Assembly (NCBI RefSeq): GCF_011393335.1
Contig: NZ_CP049865.1
Coordinates: forward strand, 2,188,722 to 2,252,721
Reading direction: 5' to 3'
Source of the DNA: Propioniciclava coleopterorum
Lineage (GTDB): Bacteria; Actinomycetota; Actinomycetes; Propionibacteriales; Propionibacteriaceae
Length of the DNA stretch: 64,000 nucleotides
Under the pieces are notes generated by a model. It was not told the DNA's origin and made no database searches. It saw nothing but the letters and a program-made list of their open reading frames with translations. Shown piece by piece: positions 32,958 through 39,535 of the stretch. Numbering within the stretch: the stretch's first letter is position 1; the number at the start of each line of letters is the position of its first letter. The position numbers were made by a program, and so were the translations under genes.

Positions 32958-33323
32958 TCAGAGGAGCGCGTCCAGGACGCCGTAGACCATCAGGCCCAGG
33001 AAGAACGCGACCACCGCGGACGCGACCATCGCCAGCGGCAGCACCACCCCCTGGACGAGGCGGCCCTCGCGGAGGTCCTCGGCGGTGTCCAGGGACGCCG
33101 CGGAGAACGTGGTGAAGCCGCCCAGCAGGCCCGCGGCCAGGACGGGATGCTGCTCGATGCCGCCCGGGATGCTCACGACCAGCGCCATCGCGAACGCGCC
33201 GATCACGTTGGTGACGAAGGTCGCGACCCGCGACGTCTTCCCGGCGCGCACGTGCAGCAGCGTGAGGGAGTAGCGCAGCACCGCGCCCACCCCGCCGGCC
33301 AGGGCGACCCACAGCCAGGTCAT
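32958..33323 (-). CDS. crcB: Fluoride channel CrcB/Fluc, second subunit
   Basis: 121 residues, four membrane helices. Family hallmarks are GGVGAVLRYSLTLL, TFVTNVIGAFAMAL (the conserved Asn of the pore) and LGGFTTFSAASLDT. Fluc channels export fluoride; when two copies sit side by side they form a heterodimer. ATG 33323 overlaps the stop of the other copy (ATGA). No fluoride riboswitch is visible upstream of the pair. Confidence 0.93.
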   Translation of the reverse strand: MTWLWVALAGGVGAVLRYSLTLLHVRAGKTSRVATFVTNVIGAFAMALVVSIPGGIEQHPVLAAGLLGGFTTFSAASLDTAEDLREGRLVQGVVLPLAMVASAVVAFFLGLMVYGVLDALL

Positions 33324-33769
33324 CCGCGGGACCTCCCCAGCGCGTGCCCCACGGCCAGCCCCGCCAGGGCCGCCGCGACGCCCGCGACGATCTGCCCCAG
33401 GACGAACCAGACGAGCCAGCCGGTCGCGGAGTCCCCGTAGCCGACGGCCGCGGAGAAGGCGTCCAGCGTGAACGCGCTGTAGGTGGTGAAGCCGCCCAGC
33501 ACGCCGGTGCCCAGCAGCAGGCGCCACTCGGCGGCGCCCAGCCGGTCCGAGCGCGGCGGCGCGGCCGCCAGCACGCCGATCAGGAACGACCCCAGCACGT
33601 TCGCGACGAGGACCGCGTAGCCGGGCGGGTGGGCCGCGTCGTAGGGGAGCGCCAGGCTCAGCAGATACCGCGCCAGGGTGCCCACGGCGCCGCCGACGAA
33701 GACGAGCCCGAACCGCGCGGGCAGCCCGGGATCGGTCCGCACCGTCAGCGCCGCCCCGCCCGGGGGCAC
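33320..33769 (-). CDS. crcB: Fluoride channel CrcB/Fluc, first subunit
   Basis: 149 residues (GTG start, N-terminus uncertain by ~15 residues). It shows GGAVGTLARYLLSL, VLVANVLGSFLIGV and LGGFTTYSAFTLDAF, the same Fluc signatures as the copy downstream, and four membrane helices. Together they should form the heterodimeric fluoride exporter. Located just downstream of the ether-lipid genes on the same strand, 32 bases after the alkyl-DHAP synthase stop. Confidence 0.92.
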   Translation of the reverse strand: MPPGGAALTVRTDPGLPARFGLVFVGGAVGTLARYLLSLALPYDAAHPPGYAVLVANVLGSFLIGVLAAAPPRSDRLGAAEWRLLLGTGVLGGFTTYSAFTLDAFSAAVGYGDSATGWLVWFVLGQIVAGVAAALAGLAVGHALGRSRG

Positions 33770-33801: not shown

Positions 33802-35508
33802 TCAGTCGAGCGCGTCGAACAGCGAGATCGCGGGGTCGATGATCTTGCCCGGGTTGAGGTTGCGGCCCGGGTCGGTCGCGTCGAACAGCGAGCGCATGAT
33901 CGCCACGCCCTCGGCGGAGACCACCTGCTCCATCCAGGGGGCGTGCTCCATCCCGACGCCGTGGTGGTGCGACAGCGTCCCGCCGTTGTCGACGAAGGCC
34001 TGCTGGATCGAGGTCTTCAGCAGCGCGTACTCGGCGTCGGGGTTGTCGCCGACCTTGAACGCGAAGGTGAAGTACAGGCAGGCGCCCACGTGGTAGGAGT
34101 GCGACAGGTGGCACATCACCCAGCCCTTGCGTCCCAGCTGCTGGTAGGCCTTCTCGGCGGCCGCGTACACGGCGCGGTGGATGCCGTTGAGCTTCGACCA
34201 GGGCGCGGCCGTCTCGGACACGTCGCCCATGACGTCCTGCTCCAGCAGGAAGTCCCGCAGGTAGGGGGTGTCGAACTTCTTCTGGTCGTAGAGCGCGCCG
34301 GGGCCGGTCCCCAGCACCAGGGCGCCGTGCGTCTTCGCGATCTTGTCCACCGCCTTGCGGCGGCGGGCGACGTCCTCGGCGGACCCCTCGAAGCAGACGT
34401 AGCTGATGCACATCTGGTCGGTGTCCCAGCCGCGCTTGCGCATCAGCGCCCACAGGCCCTTCTGCCCGGCGGCCTCCACCTTCTTCTTCACGGTCGTGGC
34501 GGCCTTCTGGGTGGCCAGGGAGAAGCCGGTCTCGTTGCCGTCGGAGATCCGCACGAAGGTCGTGGGGATCTCCTCGTCGGAGATCTGCCGGATCGCGGCG
34601 ACCGCGGTCTTCCACTCGGGGTACATGTAGGCCACGACGGTGCGCTCGGCGGGCAGGCGGTGCACCTGCACCCACAGCTCGGTGATGACGCCGAGGCGTC
34701 CCTCCGAGCCGATGAACATCTCGCGCAGCGACGGCCCGGTCGACTCGCTGGGGACCGGCTTGAGCGACACGGTGCCCGAGGGACGCACCACGGTCATGCC
34801 GCGGACGATGTCGGCGATGTCGCCGTACTTGTCCGACTGCATGCCCGAGGAGCGCGTCGCGGCCCAGCCGCCGACGGTGGAGTGGGTGAACGAGTCGGGC
34901 ATGTGGCCCAGCGTCCAGCCGCGGTCGTTGAGCGCCTCCTCCAGCGCGGGGCCCTGCATGCCGCCGCCGACGCGGGCCAGCCCGGCCTCCTCGTCGAGCT
35001 CGTACAGGCCGGCCAGCAGCCCGGTGTCGAGCGACACGATCGGACGCCGCTCCGCCGGGTCGAGCTGCAGCGAGCGGGCGATGTTCGTGCCGCCGCCGTA
35101 GGGCACGACGACGGCGTCCTGCTCCACGGCCGCCGCGAGGACGGCCGCGACCTCGGCGTCCGTGCGCGGGTAGACGACCACCTCGGGCAGCCGGCCGTAG
35201 TCGCCGCGGGACACGTGCAGCAGTTCGGTGACCGAGCTGCCGTGGCCGTGGACGACCCGCTCGTGGGCGTCGGTGGTGACCTGGTCGGCGTCGGTGGCCG
35301 CGACGAGCGCCTCGAGCAGCGCGCCGGGGACCTCGGACTCGGCCACCGTGGCGGGGTCGAACGCGATGGTGTCGATCTTGCGGGGACGCAGGTCGATGTT
35401 GAGCGCCTTCTTCACGAACGGCGCGAAGGCGGGCTTGTTGAGGTAGTTGAAGAACACACCCTCCTCGCCCCAACCCCACCACTTCATGTGCTTGACGTCG
35501 GGCTTCAT
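33802..35508 (-). CDS. Alkyldihydroxyacetonephosphate synthase homologue (FAD)
   Basis: 568 residues. The PCMH-type FAD domain shows VVVYPRTDAEVAAVL and VVPYGGGTNIARSL; the C-terminal cap shows the features that set alkyl-DHAP synthase (AGPS) apart from other VAO flavoenzymes: SHSYHVGACLYFTF with the active-site tyrosine (Tyr472) and the triple-histidine motif LSHHHGVG (His514-516). AGPS replaces the acyl chain of acyl-DHAP by a fatty alcohol, creating the glycerol ether bond. It is ATGA-coupled to the SDR gene upstream and divergent from a fatty acyl-CoA reductase, the enzyme that would supply the alcohol. Confidence 0.85.
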   Translation of the reverse strand: MKPDVKHMKWWGWGEEGVFFNYLNKPAFAPFVKKALNIDLRPRKIDTIAFDPATVAESEVPGALLEALVAATDADQVTTDAHERVVHGHGSSVTELLHVSRGDYGRLPEVVVYPRTDAEVAAVLAAAVEQDAVVVPYGGGTNIARSLQLDPAERRPIVSLDTGLLAGLYELDEEAGLARVGGGMQGPALEEALNDRGWTLGHMPDSFTHSTVGGWAATRSSGMQSDKYGDIADIVRGMTVVRPSGTVSLKPVPSESTGPSLREMFIGSEGRLGVITELWVQVHRLPAERTVVAYMYPEWKTAVAAIRQISDEEIPTTFVRISDGNETGFSLATQKAATTVKKKVEAAGQKGLWALMRKRGWDTDQMCISYVCFEGSAEDVARRRKAVDKIAKTHGALVLGTGPGALYDQKKFDTPYLRDFLLEQDVMGDVSETAAPWSKLNGIHRAVYAAAEKAYQQLGRKGWVMCHLSHSYHVGACLYFTFAFKVGDNPDAEYALLKTSIQQAFVDNGGTLSHHHGVGMEHAPWMEQVVSAEGVAIMRSLFDATDPGRNLNPGKIIDPAISLFDALD

Positions 35509-36295
35509 GCTTCTCCTTCGGAAACTCGTCGCGTGGTTCGGCGTCCGGAGATCGCCGAGGAGATCGAACGCATGGCGCCGCCGGGCAGCAGGCGCAGGAC
35601 GCCGGCCAGCACCTTGTACCGCAGCGACGGGACGGAGACGACCGCGCCGCGCGCCGCGTCCCGCAGCGCCTCGCGCGCCACCTGGTCGGGGCTGAGCCAC
35701 AGGGCGGCGGGCACCTTCGAGCGCTTCGCCCGGCCGCCGCGGGCGTGGAACTCCGTGCGCACCCAGCCCGGCAGCACCGCCGTGACGTTCACGCCCGTCC
35801 CCGCGAGCTCGTTGGCCAGCACCTCGGTGATCGCGAGCGCGTACGCCTTGAGCGCGGAGTAGGAGTCCTGCCGGGTCAGCGCCGAGACCGACACCACGGT
35901 GATGATGCTGCCCTGCCCGCGCTCGATCATCGCGGGGCCGCGGCGGACGCCAGGACGCGGGGCGTGCGGCCCATCGCCTCGTACGCCCGGTCGGCCAGCT
36001 CGTCGTCGCCGCCGACCAGCGGCGTCTTGAGCGAGAAGCCCGCGTTGTTGATGAGGAGGTCGAAGTCCCCGGTCCGCAACCGGTCGGCGACCCGCTCGAC
36101 GTCGTCGCGGTCGCTGAGGTCGGCCGCCAGGGTGTCCACCCGGACGCCGAAGGCGTGGGAGAGGTCCGCGGCGACGGTGCGCAGGCGGTCGACGTCGCGG
36201 GCGACCAGCACCAGGGGGCGGCCCTCGCGCGCCAGGGCGCGGGCGAAGGCGAGCCCGATGCCGGACGTCCCACCGGTGATGAGCGCTGCCCGCAT
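35505..36295 (-). pseudogene. Short-chain dehydrogenase/reductase, frameshifted at a G-run
   Basis: Frame one (ATG 36295) gives the nucleotide motif TGGTSGIGLAFARAL, an Asp-containing beta-4 and DLLINNAGFSLKTP; frame two gives IERGQGSIITVVSVSAL, the Y-x3-K pair in SYSALKAYALA, VLPGWVRTEFH and a normal end. The gene is 791 bases, one short of a codon multiple; a fifth G in GGGG (35934-35937, CCCC on the coding strand) restores AAPAMIERG. It overlaps the alkyl-DHAP synthase start (ATGA) and would suit the reductase that converts alkyl/acyl-DHAP to the glycerol-3-phosphate derivative. Confidence 0.82.
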
Positions 36296-36362
36296 GGGAA
36301 GTCACGCTACATTACGCTGCTCGTGCTGAAGCATCCCCGTGGTGCTTTTGGAAGGAGCACCC

Positions 36363-38588
36363 GTGCCGACCCAACCCGTGAACGTGCTGCTGACCGGAGT
36401 GACCGGATTCCTCGGCCAGGCTGTCCTGGAGCGACTGCTGTCCTCGACCGACGCCCGCATCACCTGCGTCATCCGTCCGCGCGGCGCCCAGAGCGGCCGC
36501 GCCCGGCTGGACCGGCTCCTGCGCAAGCCCGTCTTCGCGCCCTGGCGCAAGGCCGTCGGCGACGCCGAGGCCCAGCGGATCTTCGCCGAGCGGACCGACG
36601 TCCTCGAGGGCGACCTCTCCACCCTGGAGCGCATCGACGTGCCGGTCGACGTGGTGGTGCACTCGGCGTCGACGGTGTCCTTCGACGCCCCGATCGACGA
36701 GTCCTTCGCCAACAACGTCGGCGGCCCGGAGGCGCTCTACGCGGCGCTGACCGCGTCCGGGCAGGACCCGCACGTCATCCACGTGTCGACCTGCTACGTC
36801 GGCGGCATCGCCAAGGGCCTGCGGCCGGAGGCGTCCGTGGACCACGACGTGGACTGGCGCGCGGAACTGGAGGCCGCGAAGGTCGCCCGCGCCGAGGCCG
36901 AGGCCGCCTCCCGCACGCCGGAGAAGCTGCAGGAGTTCATCGACCAGGCCACGGCCGCGCACGGCAAGCAGGGCCCCAAGACGGTGGCGCGCGCCTCGGA
37001 GCAGGCCCGCGCCGACTGGATCACCGCCCGGATGGTCGAGCTGGGACGCACCCGCGCCCGCTCGGTGGGCTGGACCGACGTCTACACGTTCAGCAAGGCG
37101 CTGGGGGAGCGGGTCGCGGAGCAGGAGTGGGCGGCCAAGGGCCACCGGCTCTCGATCGTGCGCCCCGCGATCATCGAGTCCGCGCTGCGGCACCCGACCC
37201 CGGGCTGGATCGACGGCTTCAAGGTCGCCGACCCGCTGATCATGGCCTACGCCAAGGGCAGCCTGCCCGAGTTCCCGGGGCTGCCCGACTCGGTGCTCGA
37301 CGTCATCCCGGTCGACTACGTGGTCAACGTGGTGCTGGCGCTCGCACGCCTGGGCCACCAGGGCCCCGAGCGCTCCGACGTCGGCTACTTCCAGGTCTGC
37401 TCGGGTGCGTCCAACCCGCTGCCGTTCCACCGGATGTACTCCGAGGTGCGCGCCTACTTCCTCCAGCACCCGCTGGAGGACGACAAGGGCCGCCCGATCA
37501 TCGTCCCGACGTGGCGGTTCCCCGCGAACAACGCCGCCGAGCGCTCGCTGCGCCTCAAGGAGCGGCTGTCGGCGCTGGGCTCCCGGATCGGCGAGGCCCT
37601 GCCCTCCACGGCGTGGACCAGGCAGTGGAGCAGCAGCCTGTCCCGCATGGAGCGCGGGCTGGGGTCGCTGCGCACCTACGTGGACCTGTACCAGAGCTAC
37701 ACGCGCACCGAGATGCTGTTCGACGACCAGCAGACCCGCGCGCTGGGCGCCAAGCTGCCCGACGGCACCCCCGACGACGAGACCTTCGACGTGCGCGACA
37801 TCGACTGGACGCACTACTGGCAGGACGTGCACCTGCCCGCCATGACGTCCCTGGCGAAGGTGCACGCCCGGGCCTCCAGCGCCCGCAAGGCGTCCCGCTC
37901 CAAGGCGCGGGCGCTCGAATCCGGCACCGACGTGCTGGCCGTGTTCGACCTCGAGGGCACCCTGCTGCCGAGCTCGCTCGTGACCCAGTACCTCTCGATC
38001 ATGCGGTTCATCCGGCCGCTGGCCCAGTTCCCGGCCGAGTTCGCCGACCTCGTCGGCAAGACCAACGTCTACCTCAAGGCCGAACGCCGCGACCGCGGCG
38101 AGTTCGTGCGGGCGTTCAGCCGGCGCTACGCCGGGACGCGGGTCGCCGACATCGAGCGGGCGGTCGACGGCCCGTGGGGCGACGCGCTGCTGCGCTCGCT
38201 GCGTCCGGGGGCGCTGTCCCGGATCGAGGAGCACCGGGCGGCCGGGCACCGCACGGTGCTGGTCACGGGCTCGCTCGACCTGTTCGCCGCCCCCCTGGCG
38301 TCGCTGTTCGACGACGTCGTGGCGTCCCGGATGGAGGTCGCCGACGGCGTCCTGACCGGGTACCTGGCGACGCCGCCGCTCGTGGACGAGGCCCGCGCCC
38401 AGTGGCTGAAGGACTACGCCGCCCGGCACGGGCTGGACCTGAGCCGCTCGCACGGGTACGGCGACTCGGTGGCCGACGTCAGCTGGCTGCAGTTGCTCGG
38501 GCGTCCGGTCGCGGTGAACCCCGACCTGCAGCTGTACCGCGCGGCGAGCCGTGCCTACTGGCCGATCGAGGACTGGAAGCACGCCTGA
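36363..38588 (+). CDS. Fatty acyl-CoA reductase fused to HAD-IB hydrolase domain
   Basis: 741 residues. The N-terminal extended-SDR half has NVLLTGVTGFLGQAVLERLL (residues 8-27), VVVHSASTVSF and the catalytic pair Y241-x3-K245, typical of alcohol-forming fatty acyl-CoA reductases of the male-sterility type. The C-terminal half is a HAD-IB domain: VFDLEGTLLP (Asp529, with Glu531 where the second Asp normally stands), LVTGSLDLF and GYGDSVADVSWL. GTG 36363 is preferred: GAAGGAG lies five bases upstream. It should reduce acyl-CoA to fatty alcohol; the HAD part may act on a lipid phosphate. Divergent from the SDR/alkyl-DHAP synthase genes by 67 bases. Confidence 0.88.
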   Translation: MPTQPVNVLLTGVTGFLGQAVLERLLSSTDARITCVIRPRGAQSGRARLDRLLRKPVFAPWRKAVGDAEAQRIFAERTDVLEGDLSTLERIDVPVDVVVHSASTVSFDAPIDESFANNVGGPEALYAALTASGQDPHVIHVSTCYVGGIAKGLRPEASVDHDVDWRAELEAAKVARAEAEAASRTPEKLQEFIDQATAAHGKQGPKTVARASEQARADWITARMVELGRTRARSVGWTDVYTFSKALGERVAEQEWAAKGHRLSIVRPAIIESALRHPTPGWIDGFKVADPLIMAYAKGSLPEFPGLPDSVLDVIPVDYVVNVVLALARLGHQGPERSDVGYFQVCSGASNPLPFHRMYSEVRAYFLQHPLEDDKGRPIIVPTWRFPANNAAERSLRLKERLSALGSRIGEALPSTAWTRQWSSSLSRMERGLGSLRTYVDLYQSYTRTEMLFDDQQTRALGAKLPDGTPDDETFDVRDIDWTHYWQDVHLPAMTSLAKVHARASSARKASRSKARALESGTDVLAVFDLEGTLLPSSLVTQYLSIMRFIRPLAQFPAEFADLVGKTNVYLKAERRDRGEFVRAFSRRYAGTRVADIERAVDGPWGDALLRSLRPGALSRIEEHRAAGHRTVLVTGSLDLFAAPLASLFDDVVASRMEVADGVLTGYLATPPLVDEARAQWLKDYAARHGLDLSRSHGYGDSVADVSWLQLLGRPVAVNPDLQLYRAASRAYWPIEDWKHA

Positions 38589-38653: not shown

Positions 38654-39535
38654 GTGGCTCGATCCCGGATCACGGACGCCCAGTTGTTGGCGCACGTCAA
38701 CAAGCTCGGCGACGAACACCCCCCGATTCGTCTCGACTCCGTCGACTACACGGTGAACAACCCCGACGTCCTGCGCACCCGGTTCGCGGGCGTCCTGGAC
38801 TACCTCGCCCGTGTGGAGTTGGAGGTCGAGCGCAACGTCCTGGAACTGCTGACGATCATGCCGAACCCGTCCGAGGCGGATCGGGTGTTCTACTCCGACG
38901 TCTGGTACGACCAGGAGATCGCGCACGGCCAGATCCTCGACGAGCTCAAGCGCCGCATCGACCTGCCCGAGGCGGAGCCGCAGCTGGCCGTCGGGTTCGC
39001 GGTGCAGGCGCTGGGCGCCCTGGCGCGCTTCGAGCCGATCCAGGACGTCGCCCGCACCATCTACTACTTCACGGGCGCCTCGACCGAGCGGCAGGCCGTC
39101 CTGGCCTACAACGCGCTGTCGACGCAGCTGGACGAGCTGGGGGAGAAGGCCGTCCGCGAGACGATCATCAACCAGATCAAGCGGCAGGAGCCCGGCCACT
39201 TCGCGTTCTACCGGATGAGCGCCGAGAAGATCATGACCGACGGCACCCTGCGTCCGTGGCAGGTGTTCCTCGCCCGTCTGCTGCGCGAGCGTTCCTACGA
39301 GTTGGTGGGCACCCACAACGACCCGGTGCACCAGGCCACGATGGGCGAGGTGATCGACGTGCTGGGCTTCGACGGCCAACTCGAGGCCTTCGCCAAGGAG
39401 ATCGGACGCCTCGAGGCGAAGCTGCTGTGGGCCAACAAACAGGGCATGGAGTTCCCGCCCTACGTGCTGCGCGCCCTGCGCGAGAGCGTCGAGCTGTACC
39501 GCGAGCAGGGTTCCTTCGCGGCGCGGCTCTCCTAA
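38654..39535 (+). CDS. Four-helix di-iron (ferritin-like) protein
   Basis: 293 residues without a name I can assign. A full ferritin-like ligand set is readable: E55 or E57 in helix 1 (ARVELEVERN), E88-x2-H91 in helix 2 (YDQEIAHGQIL), E145 in helix 3 (GASTERQAVLAYN) and E179-x2-H182 in helix 4 (KRQEPGHFAFY). This E, ExxH, E, ExxH order is that of di-iron oxygenases and desaturases such as acyl-ACP desaturases and AurF. No signal peptide. It lies 65 bases after the fatty acyl-CoA reductase but has its own -10 box TAGGAT six bases before GTG 38654. An oxygenase or desaturase acting on lipid is an inference. Confidence 0.7.
   Translation: MARSRITDAQLLAHVNKLGDEHPPIRLDSVDYTVNNPDVLRTRFAGVLDYLARVELEVERNVLELLTIMPNPSEADRVFYSDVWYDQEIAHGQILDELKRRIDLPEAEPQLAVGFAVQALGALARFEPIQDVARTIYYFTGASTERQAVLAYNALSTQLDELGEKAVRETIINQIKRQEPGHFAFYRMSAEKIMTDGTLRPWQVFLARLLRERSYELVGTHNDPVHQATMGEVIDVLGFDGQLEAFAKEIGRLEAKLLWANKQGMEFPPYVLRALRESVELYREQGSFAARLS

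Follow-up and report, generated by a model that had tools for sequence, protein, structure and literature searches.

Does the chromosomal region surrounding a putative alkyl-dihydroxyacetone-phosphate (DHAP) synthase gene of Propioniciclava coleopterorum encode a route to ether lipids, and are the parts of such a route present in this organism? The window analyzed here, a stretch of 64,000 nucleotides, corresponds to positions 2188722-2252721 of the 3.67-Mb, one-contig genome. An initial annotation had proposed that three neighboring genes, encoding a flavoprotein of the alkyl-DHAP synthase (AGPS) type, a short-chain dehydrogenase/reductase (SDR), and a fatty acyl-CoA reductase (FAR) fused to a HAD domain, constitute an alkyl-glycerol biosynthesis locus. 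We consider it quite probable that the locus represents an aerobic-type, DHAP-based AGPS pathway for alkyl ether lipids. Each reaction, as well as the product in this organism, is predicted from homology, active-site residues, gene order, co-occurrence, and the occurrence of the block in one strain for which dimethyl acetals (DMAs) have been published.

The flavoprotein gene, located on the minus strand at 33802-35508, encodes a protein of 568 amino acids with the Pfam domains FAD_binding_4 and FAD-oxidase_C. The best solved relative was the Dictyostelium AGPS (2uuu, E 1.3e-95, residues 65-557 of 568), followed by the guinea pig AGPS (4bby, E 3.5e-80, residues 25-548), and the next family, D-lactate dehydrogenase, matched residues 64-321 only, at E 3.1e-20. 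The homology to AGPS (EC 2.5.1.26) was well above that to other FAD oxidases. We constructed a tree of 42 proteins, comprising 22 clade-1 rows and no named glycolate or lactate oxidases, in which all of the clade-1 rows, including the window protein, formed one group with a support of 100/99. Two FAD-oxidase paralogues of the same genome (L004 and L006) lay apart from clade 1, on long branches of their own, and another, L002, fell inside the AGPS-like part of the tree, joined to a long-branch row, in a placement flagged as unsure. Together with the aligned residues described below, the solved relatives and the tree supported the proposed AGPS homologue and placed it on the AGPS side, not in the grouping with lactate or glycolate oxidases that the initial annotation had named as evidence to the contrary. 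An identity as a glycolate/lactate oxidase was rejected on the basis of the tree position, the AGPS enzymes as best solved relatives, and a GlcD family score of 118.5 bits, below the cut-off of 567.9.

The catalytic residues of guinea pig AGPS, Arg419, Arg515, Tyr578 and His615-617, aligned with Arg320, Arg418, Tyr479 and His514-516 of the window protein, whose Thr211 occupies the position of guinea pig Thr309. All six were invariant in 78 of 78 rows, consisting of the window protein and 77 locus proteins longer than 500 amino acids. Tyr479 also aligned with Tyr508 of the Dictyostelium enzyme, in which R352, Y508 and R447 are described as important (PMC3509576); numbering differs from the chain index by a constant offset of 3, so that the published and the mapped residues occupy the same columns. 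The initial annotation had assigned the active-site tyrosine to position 472. This residue was rejected as catalytic, since it is Met in three Subtercola loci, and the guinea pig numbering maps to Tyr479; it is Glu in Labedella. The triple histidine at 514-516 did align with guinea pig His615-617, but it is not specific to AGPS as had been claimed: a paralogue in the same genome (L163:3622-5082, the tree row L002), which adjoins genes for an FGGY kinase and an SDR in a setting that looks catabolic, shares the two Arg, the Tyr and the HHH, as do 15 sampled clade-2 and clade-3 proteins. Thus, the flavoprotein has the catalytic residues of AGPS, but the set marks a wider family, and it is gene context that discriminates within it.

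The reductase gene (36363-38588, plus strand) was found, as initially described, to be one open frame of 741 amino acids with Pfam NAD_binding_4 and HAD, the latter of the HAD-IB type. The sequence GGAAGGAG lies upstream of its GTG start. Residues 7-512 matched a solved fatty acyl-CoA reductase (7eoz) at E 1.2e-42, and the NAD-binding domain PF07993 scored 162.9 bits against a cut-off of 20.1. The HAD motif I, at residues 528-534, reads FDLEGTL, with Glu where a second Asp is usual; 64 of 69 rows, that of the window among them, have this Glu, and the FD-x-E-G-T motif suggests a modified phosphohydrolase.

The SDR gene, on the minus strand between these two genes, had been described as a single frame at 35505-36295. 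This description did not hold, as the span of 791 bases is not a multiple of 3 and contains in-frame stops. All the motifs of the putative alkyl-DHAP reductase are present, but across two frames: an N-terminal half (35927-36295) carries TGxxxGIG and NNAG before a one-base frameshift leads it into a premature stop, and a C-terminal half (35505-35930), in its own frame, carries YxxxK; each matches Pfam adh_short. The gene is one frame in three sister loci (L007-L009: P. flava, P. sinopodophylli and another Propioniciclava contig), and alignment with these locates a gap of one base near 35,933. The two halves overlap as ATGA, which contains both the stop of the first and the opening Met of the second, and coupled translation of the two pieces is possible. 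The frameshift may be either a real mutation or a sequencing error.

The remark that an acyltransferase is not in the window agreed with the open reading frames (ORFs) inspected there, and an orthologue of the PlsC found in the operons of relatives was located elsewhere in the genome. For the missing ACYLTRANSFERASE, four PF01553 matches were obtained in the genome of the window. One of them (L162:7665-8495) scored 290 bits against a profile of operon PlsC proteins, for which four operon members, themselves in the training set, scored 332-358 bits; the other three candidates scored 38 bits or less. The PlsC orthologue lies at ~1.877 Mb, 0.35 Mb from the window locus, just downstream of an intact second SDR (L162:8631-9407). 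This site adjoins ORFs resembling, by eye, acetate kinase and phosphotransacetylase, and similar-looking ORFs precede SDR-PlsC-AGPS in Microlunatus kandeliicorticis. It seems from these arrangements that the genome kept an SDR-PlsC pair at one site and FAR/SDR/AGPS at another. The second SDR was not the sister of the broken one in a tree of 24 rows; it could nevertheless cover for it.

To place the locus among its relatives, we used the best 80 of 373 relatives found by one scan of named genomes, with neighboring genes sought by tblastn within the fetched loci. The nearest named relatives of the flavoprotein were those of P. flava (86%) and then P. sinopodophylli (79%). The gene order of the window locus agrees with that of P. 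flava, for which 16 of 19 called ORFs were matched in the window, and the SDR was the only ORF whose match breaks into two frames; for a CrcB-like ORF, a second, weaker match falls on its neighboring paralogue. The 80 loci contained FAR in 70, SDR in 77 and a PlsC-type acyltransferase (PF01553, as seen in the L031 protein) in 73, these and the following counts being presence inside the fetched locus, which does not prove a single operon. Among the 73 loci with at least 7.5 kb upstream, FAR was present in 66, SDR in 72, PlsC in 69 and all three in 63, so that the neighborhood of AGPS with FAR and SDR is conserved, a check that the initial annotation had suggested. Two further genes, designated ferA and ferB, occurred in 47 and 46 of these loci, respectively, and together with FAR, SDR and PlsC in 45. 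The commonest order was ferA-FARHAD-ferB diverging from SDR-PlsC-AGPS, exact by called ORFs in 35 loci. FAR was missing from 7 of the 73 loci, and 19, including those of P. flava and P. sinopodophylli, had FAR without ferA. No PlsC was called between SDR and AGPS in the Propioniciclava loci or in Nigerium.

The tree also bears on the origin of the gene. The proteins of the window, P. flava and P. sinopodophylli cluster with Kocuria (100/99), and the AGPS proteins of Microlunatus and G001, from the same family as the organism of the window, fall outside this group, a grouping that suggests horizontal transfer in either direction. However, the next to join the group, with weak support (91/67), is Nigerium, also of the same family, so the pattern may equally reflect descent inside that family. 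Some of the joins in the tree rest on long branches.

In the proposed pathway, FAR would convert a fatty acyl thioester to a fatty alcohol, and the PlsC-type acyltransferase, whose gene is unlinked here (~1.877 Mb), would acylate DHAP to acyl-DHAP. AGPS would then replace the acyl chain with the fatty alcohol, yielding alkyl-DHAP, and an SDR would reduce the ketone of alkyl-DHAP to alkyl-glycerol-3-phosphate, followed by ordinary phospholipid assembly. Because of the frameshift in the SDR next to AGPS, this reduction probably falls to the second SDR, next to the acyltransferase. In the genomes with ferA and ferB, we hypothesize that an oxygen-dependent 1'-2' desaturation of the alkyl chain would yield plasmalogens, with ferA/ferB as the candidate plasmanyl desaturase of these relatives.

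The ferA product has a predicted acyl-ACP-desaturase fold. Its desaturase match, PF03405, was 22.1 bits, just under the cut-off of 22.7, and a sequence search of solved structures gave a designed helix bundle and a weak match to DesA2 only. An AlphaFold model (mean pLDDT 83.8) was closest to plant acyl-ACP desaturases, with a VIA Z of 18.7 to castor stearoyl-ACP desaturase (rmsd 3.2, 243 residues) and 17.2 to DesA2, and the next family, R2-like oxidases, gave 15.4. The best Foldseek E-value was 1.0e-3, none being under 0.001. In the Propioniciclava loci, the gene adjoining FAR-HAD encodes a different predicted soluble di-iron protein with an acyl-ACP-desaturase fold, designated D38 (38654-39535, plus strand; ligands E55, E88, H91, E145, E179 and H182), which the initial annotation did not include. 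Its model (pLDDT 93.7) had a VIA Z of 19.0 to the castor enzyme (rmsd 3.5, 258 residues), with the next family at 15.4, and a Foldseek E-value of 3.4e-3. D38 had no PF03405 desaturase match, so that neither protein reaches the curated score of that family, and no solved relative of D38 was found by sequence at E 0.1. The ferA and D38 profiles align (E 2e-9, probability 96), as distant relatives. The six-ligand E/ExxH/E/ExxH pattern is complete in 23 of 23 ferA and 28 of 28 D38 rows; both proteins, as predicted models, thus combine the fold and the six ligands of a soluble acyl-ACP desaturase. ferB is a paralogue of ferA that has lost three ligands: in each of 45 proteins (L031:6385-7206 and 44 others), position 77 is occupied by Lys/Arg and position 80 by a residue other than His, and 42 of the 45 have Lys/Arg at position 171. 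Two Glu are accordingly mostly replaced by Lys/Arg and one His mostly by an aliphatic residue, the three other ligands being mostly kept. The ferA product may be the catalytic subunit and that of ferB a metal-poor partner.

We examined the co-occurrence of ferA with AGPS in two samples, with kinship left uncorrected in the probabilities given. Of 296 genomes of the class, 35 had a clade-1 AGPS, 24 a strong ferA match and 20 both (Fisher 5e-18), using cuts chosen after seeing the score gaps (AGPS at the gap 612/328 bits, ferA >424 bits); when all ferA matches at E 1e-15 were taken, 20 of 34 were with AGPS (4e-13). Similarly, among 150 genomes of the family of G335, taken to be Microbacteriaceae, AGPS (E 1e-150) was found in 39, ferA (E 1e-90) in 44 and both in 37 (1e-25), and the two AGPS genomes without ferA are only 85% and 77% complete. 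Counting against the linkage, ferA occurred without clade-1 AGPS in 4 of the 24 genomes of the class sample and 7 of the 44 of the family sample, and 15 of the 35 genomes with clade-1 AGPS in the class sample, the window's own included, lacked ferA. In G235 and G256 (L157 and L158), the stretch retrieved contained ferA and ferB as a pair but neither FAR nor AGPS; the pair may have a different substrate in these genomes, or the other genes may have been lost. Among 147 genomes of the order, D38 was matched in 77, of which 3 gave weak matches alone. On a contig from an uncultured member of the Propionibacteriaceae (L029:6113-9154), D38 lies beyond AGPS, on the opposite side from FAR-HAD, and thus stays near the locus in a different arrangement.

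A phenotype is available for one carrier of the complete block. Subtercola vilae DB165 (locus L085), which has FAR/PlsC/AGPS/SDR together with ferA/ferB, contains iso-C16:0 DMA (17.0%), a-15:0 DMA (3.2%) and a-17:0 DMA (1.9%) according to its description (PMC5945732), a DMA total of ~22%, dimethyl acetals being a signature of plasmalogens. The same source lists S. boreus, S. frigoramans and S. lobariae with DMAs, Agreia with low amounts and Frondihabitans with none (PMC5945732); the S. boreus locus analyzed here (L081) is that of another strain, P27479. The text of the S. vilae paper does not mention oxygen relations (PMC5945732). In a 2020 description of Kineococcus, anteiso-C15:0 DMA is called surprising "at first sight" in an aerobe, and DMAs, taken as indicative of plasmalogens, are noted also in the aerobic S. 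boreus and S. frigoramans (PMC7472656).

We then searched for the known vinyl-ether routes. The PlsA domain, PF09989, was found in none of 8 relatives including L085 and L081, in a search that matched 4 of 14 control genomes. The CarF/PEDS1 family, PF10520, which presumably also takes in plant FAD4-like enzymes, gave no match in the genome of the window or in the same 8 relatives. It did match 18 of 396 genomes of the phylum (G592, G638, G687 and 15 others; 17 above the cut-off, none in the class of the window), so the search is able to find the family. According to a 2022 review, true CarF homologues are confined to Leptospira and a single suborder of myxobacteria (PMC9131029). Since Subtercola has DMAs without a PlsA-domain or PF10520 match, some other vinyl-ether-forming enzyme would be needed there. 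The genome of the window, for its part, encodes a protein of 1445 amino acids (L164:2062-6399, ~666061-670398) with DUF2229 and two BadF/BadG stretches, the combination of BadF/BadG ATPase domains and DUF2229 in one long protein that characterizes a PlsA/Ger-like activase; a divergent TetR-like ORF (by eye) adjoins it. Ger and PlsA are stated to be indistinguishable by homology alone (PMC11868695), and pls genes are reported by a review for Propionibacteriales, among others (PMC9702350). The PlsA-like gene may give this organism an anaerobic route to plasmalogens or alkyl ethers, and with this second possible route, an ether lipid found in it would be assignable only by gene deletion.

Several observations weigh against the proposed pathway. 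The SDR beside AGPS is broken in this strain, the acyltransferase is unlinked to AGPS, and the C-terminal (Sterile) domain of FAR, PF03015, scored 25.7 bits, below the cut-off of 35.4. The AGPS residue set also occurs in the paralogue of the catabolic-looking cluster, and residues alone are no proof of the reaction; moreover, any ether lipid could stem from the PlsA-like gene. A search of the genome of the window for ferA at E 1e-15 gave no match, and 13 regions of other Propionibacteriales genera had D38 without AGPS or FAR within ~6-10 kb, as had the same-genus region L155, which weakens the case for D38 being dedicated to the pathway. Whether or not it stands in for ferA in this genome, its part in the pathway is putative. 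A rival reading, in which the flavoprotein would be an oxidase of hydroxy acids or sugar acids from this FAD superfamily, flanked by unrelated lipid genes, is very unlikely: Pfam and NCBIfam give the flavoprotein only FAD_binding_4/FAD-oxidase_C or a weak glcD match, and its own paralogue with the Arg/Tyr/HHH set adjoins an FGGY kinase and an SDR, but its best PDB relatives are two AGPS enzymes over almost the whole chain, clade 1 stands apart from L004 and L006, and the linkage to FAR and PlsC is conserved. The frameshift in the SDR and the PlsA-like protein would also fit a decaying locus, with an SDR pseudogene, an acyltransferase left elsewhere and little or no alkyl lipid, any ether lipids being made by the PlsA-like reductive route. 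We regard such decay as unlikely, because AGPS and FAR-HAD are both open and 86-88% identical to those of P. flava, the genome holds an intact second SDR and a PlsC orthologue, and the one-base indel could reflect a sequencing error, or coupled translation could yield both halves.

The function of ferA/ferB is less settled than that of AGPS. In the relatives, the pair could be an ordinary acyl desaturase/hydroxylase, or it could serve as an aldehyde oxygenase for the FAR product, a reading that we consider a real possibility, if on balance somewhat doubtful. The fold of ferA is that of acyl-ACP desaturases and is partly common to other di-iron oxidases, the Foldseek E-values are weak, and ferA occurs in some genomes without clade-1 AGPS, two of them with the ferA-ferB pair and neither FAR nor AGPS in the fetched stretch. 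On the other hand, the strong co-occurrence and linkage of ferA with AGPS, and the DMA-containing Subtercola without a PlsA-domain or PF10520 match, argue against this reading. We give slightly less than an even chance to the joint hypothesis that aerobic actinobacteria make plasmalogens via DHAP and AGPS, with the soluble di-iron desaturase ferA+ferB replacing CarF/PEDS1, and that Propioniciclava has the alkyl part, with D38 in the ferA position, beside an anaerobic PlsA-like route.

In comparison with known systems, the bacterial block resembles the eukaryotic peroxisomal pathway (FAR1, GNPAT, AGPS, PexRAP and PEDS1, as named in PMC9131029) in having FAR, acyltransferase, AGPS and SDR homologues with conserved AGPS catalytic residues, but the bacterial FAR is fused to HAD, the acyltransferase is of the PlsC type, and the PEDS1/CarF family is unmatched, as described above. 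In Myxococcus xanthus, the MXAN_1676-1674 and elb operons likewise have an AGPS homologue near FAR-like, acyltransferase and reductase proteins, and the elb operon also includes a HAD protein, ElbB; unlike the window, ElbD is multidomain, MXAN_1675 is a FAR-acyltransferase fusion, and CarF serves as the desaturase (PMC9131029). The anaerobic plasmalogen reductases PlsA/PlsR yield alkenyl ethers, and a PlsA-like gene is present in the genome of the window, but they differ from the AGPS block in being unrelated proteins of a reductive route from diacyl lipids (PMC9702350). ferA and D38 are like castor stearoyl-ACP desaturase and Mycobacterium tuberculosis DesA2 in structural similarity and the six-ligand pattern, but differ from the soluble acyl-ACP desaturases in an identity of only 12-14% and in having no Foldseek match under E 0.001; ferB differs in its three lost ligands. 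AGPS homologues in Actinobacteria have already been noted in metagenomes (PMC11868695). A search of the open-licence literature found no description of this block, nor of ferA/ferB as a desaturase, subscription literature being outside its coverage. In a 2023 review, plasmalogens are stated to be absent from aerobic bacteria, myxobacteria excepted (PMC10191378). The FAR/PlsC/AGPS/SDR block with the linked di-iron pair provides a concrete, testable genetic basis for dimethyl acetals in aerobes, and, if the hypothesis is true, the evolution of oxygen-dependent vinyl-ether formation involved desaturases of more than one kind. As regards the window, the annotation is corrected and the acyltransferase is located.

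The junctions between the three genes were as initially described: SDR and AGPS overlap as ATGA at 35505-35508, and SDR diverges from FAR-HAD across an intergenic region of 67 bases (36296-36362). A sigma-70-like promoter was not found in 36200-36460, the region around this gap. Directly downstream of AGPS, two neighboring minus-strand ORFs (32958-33769) resemble, by eye, a CrcB fluoride-channel pair.

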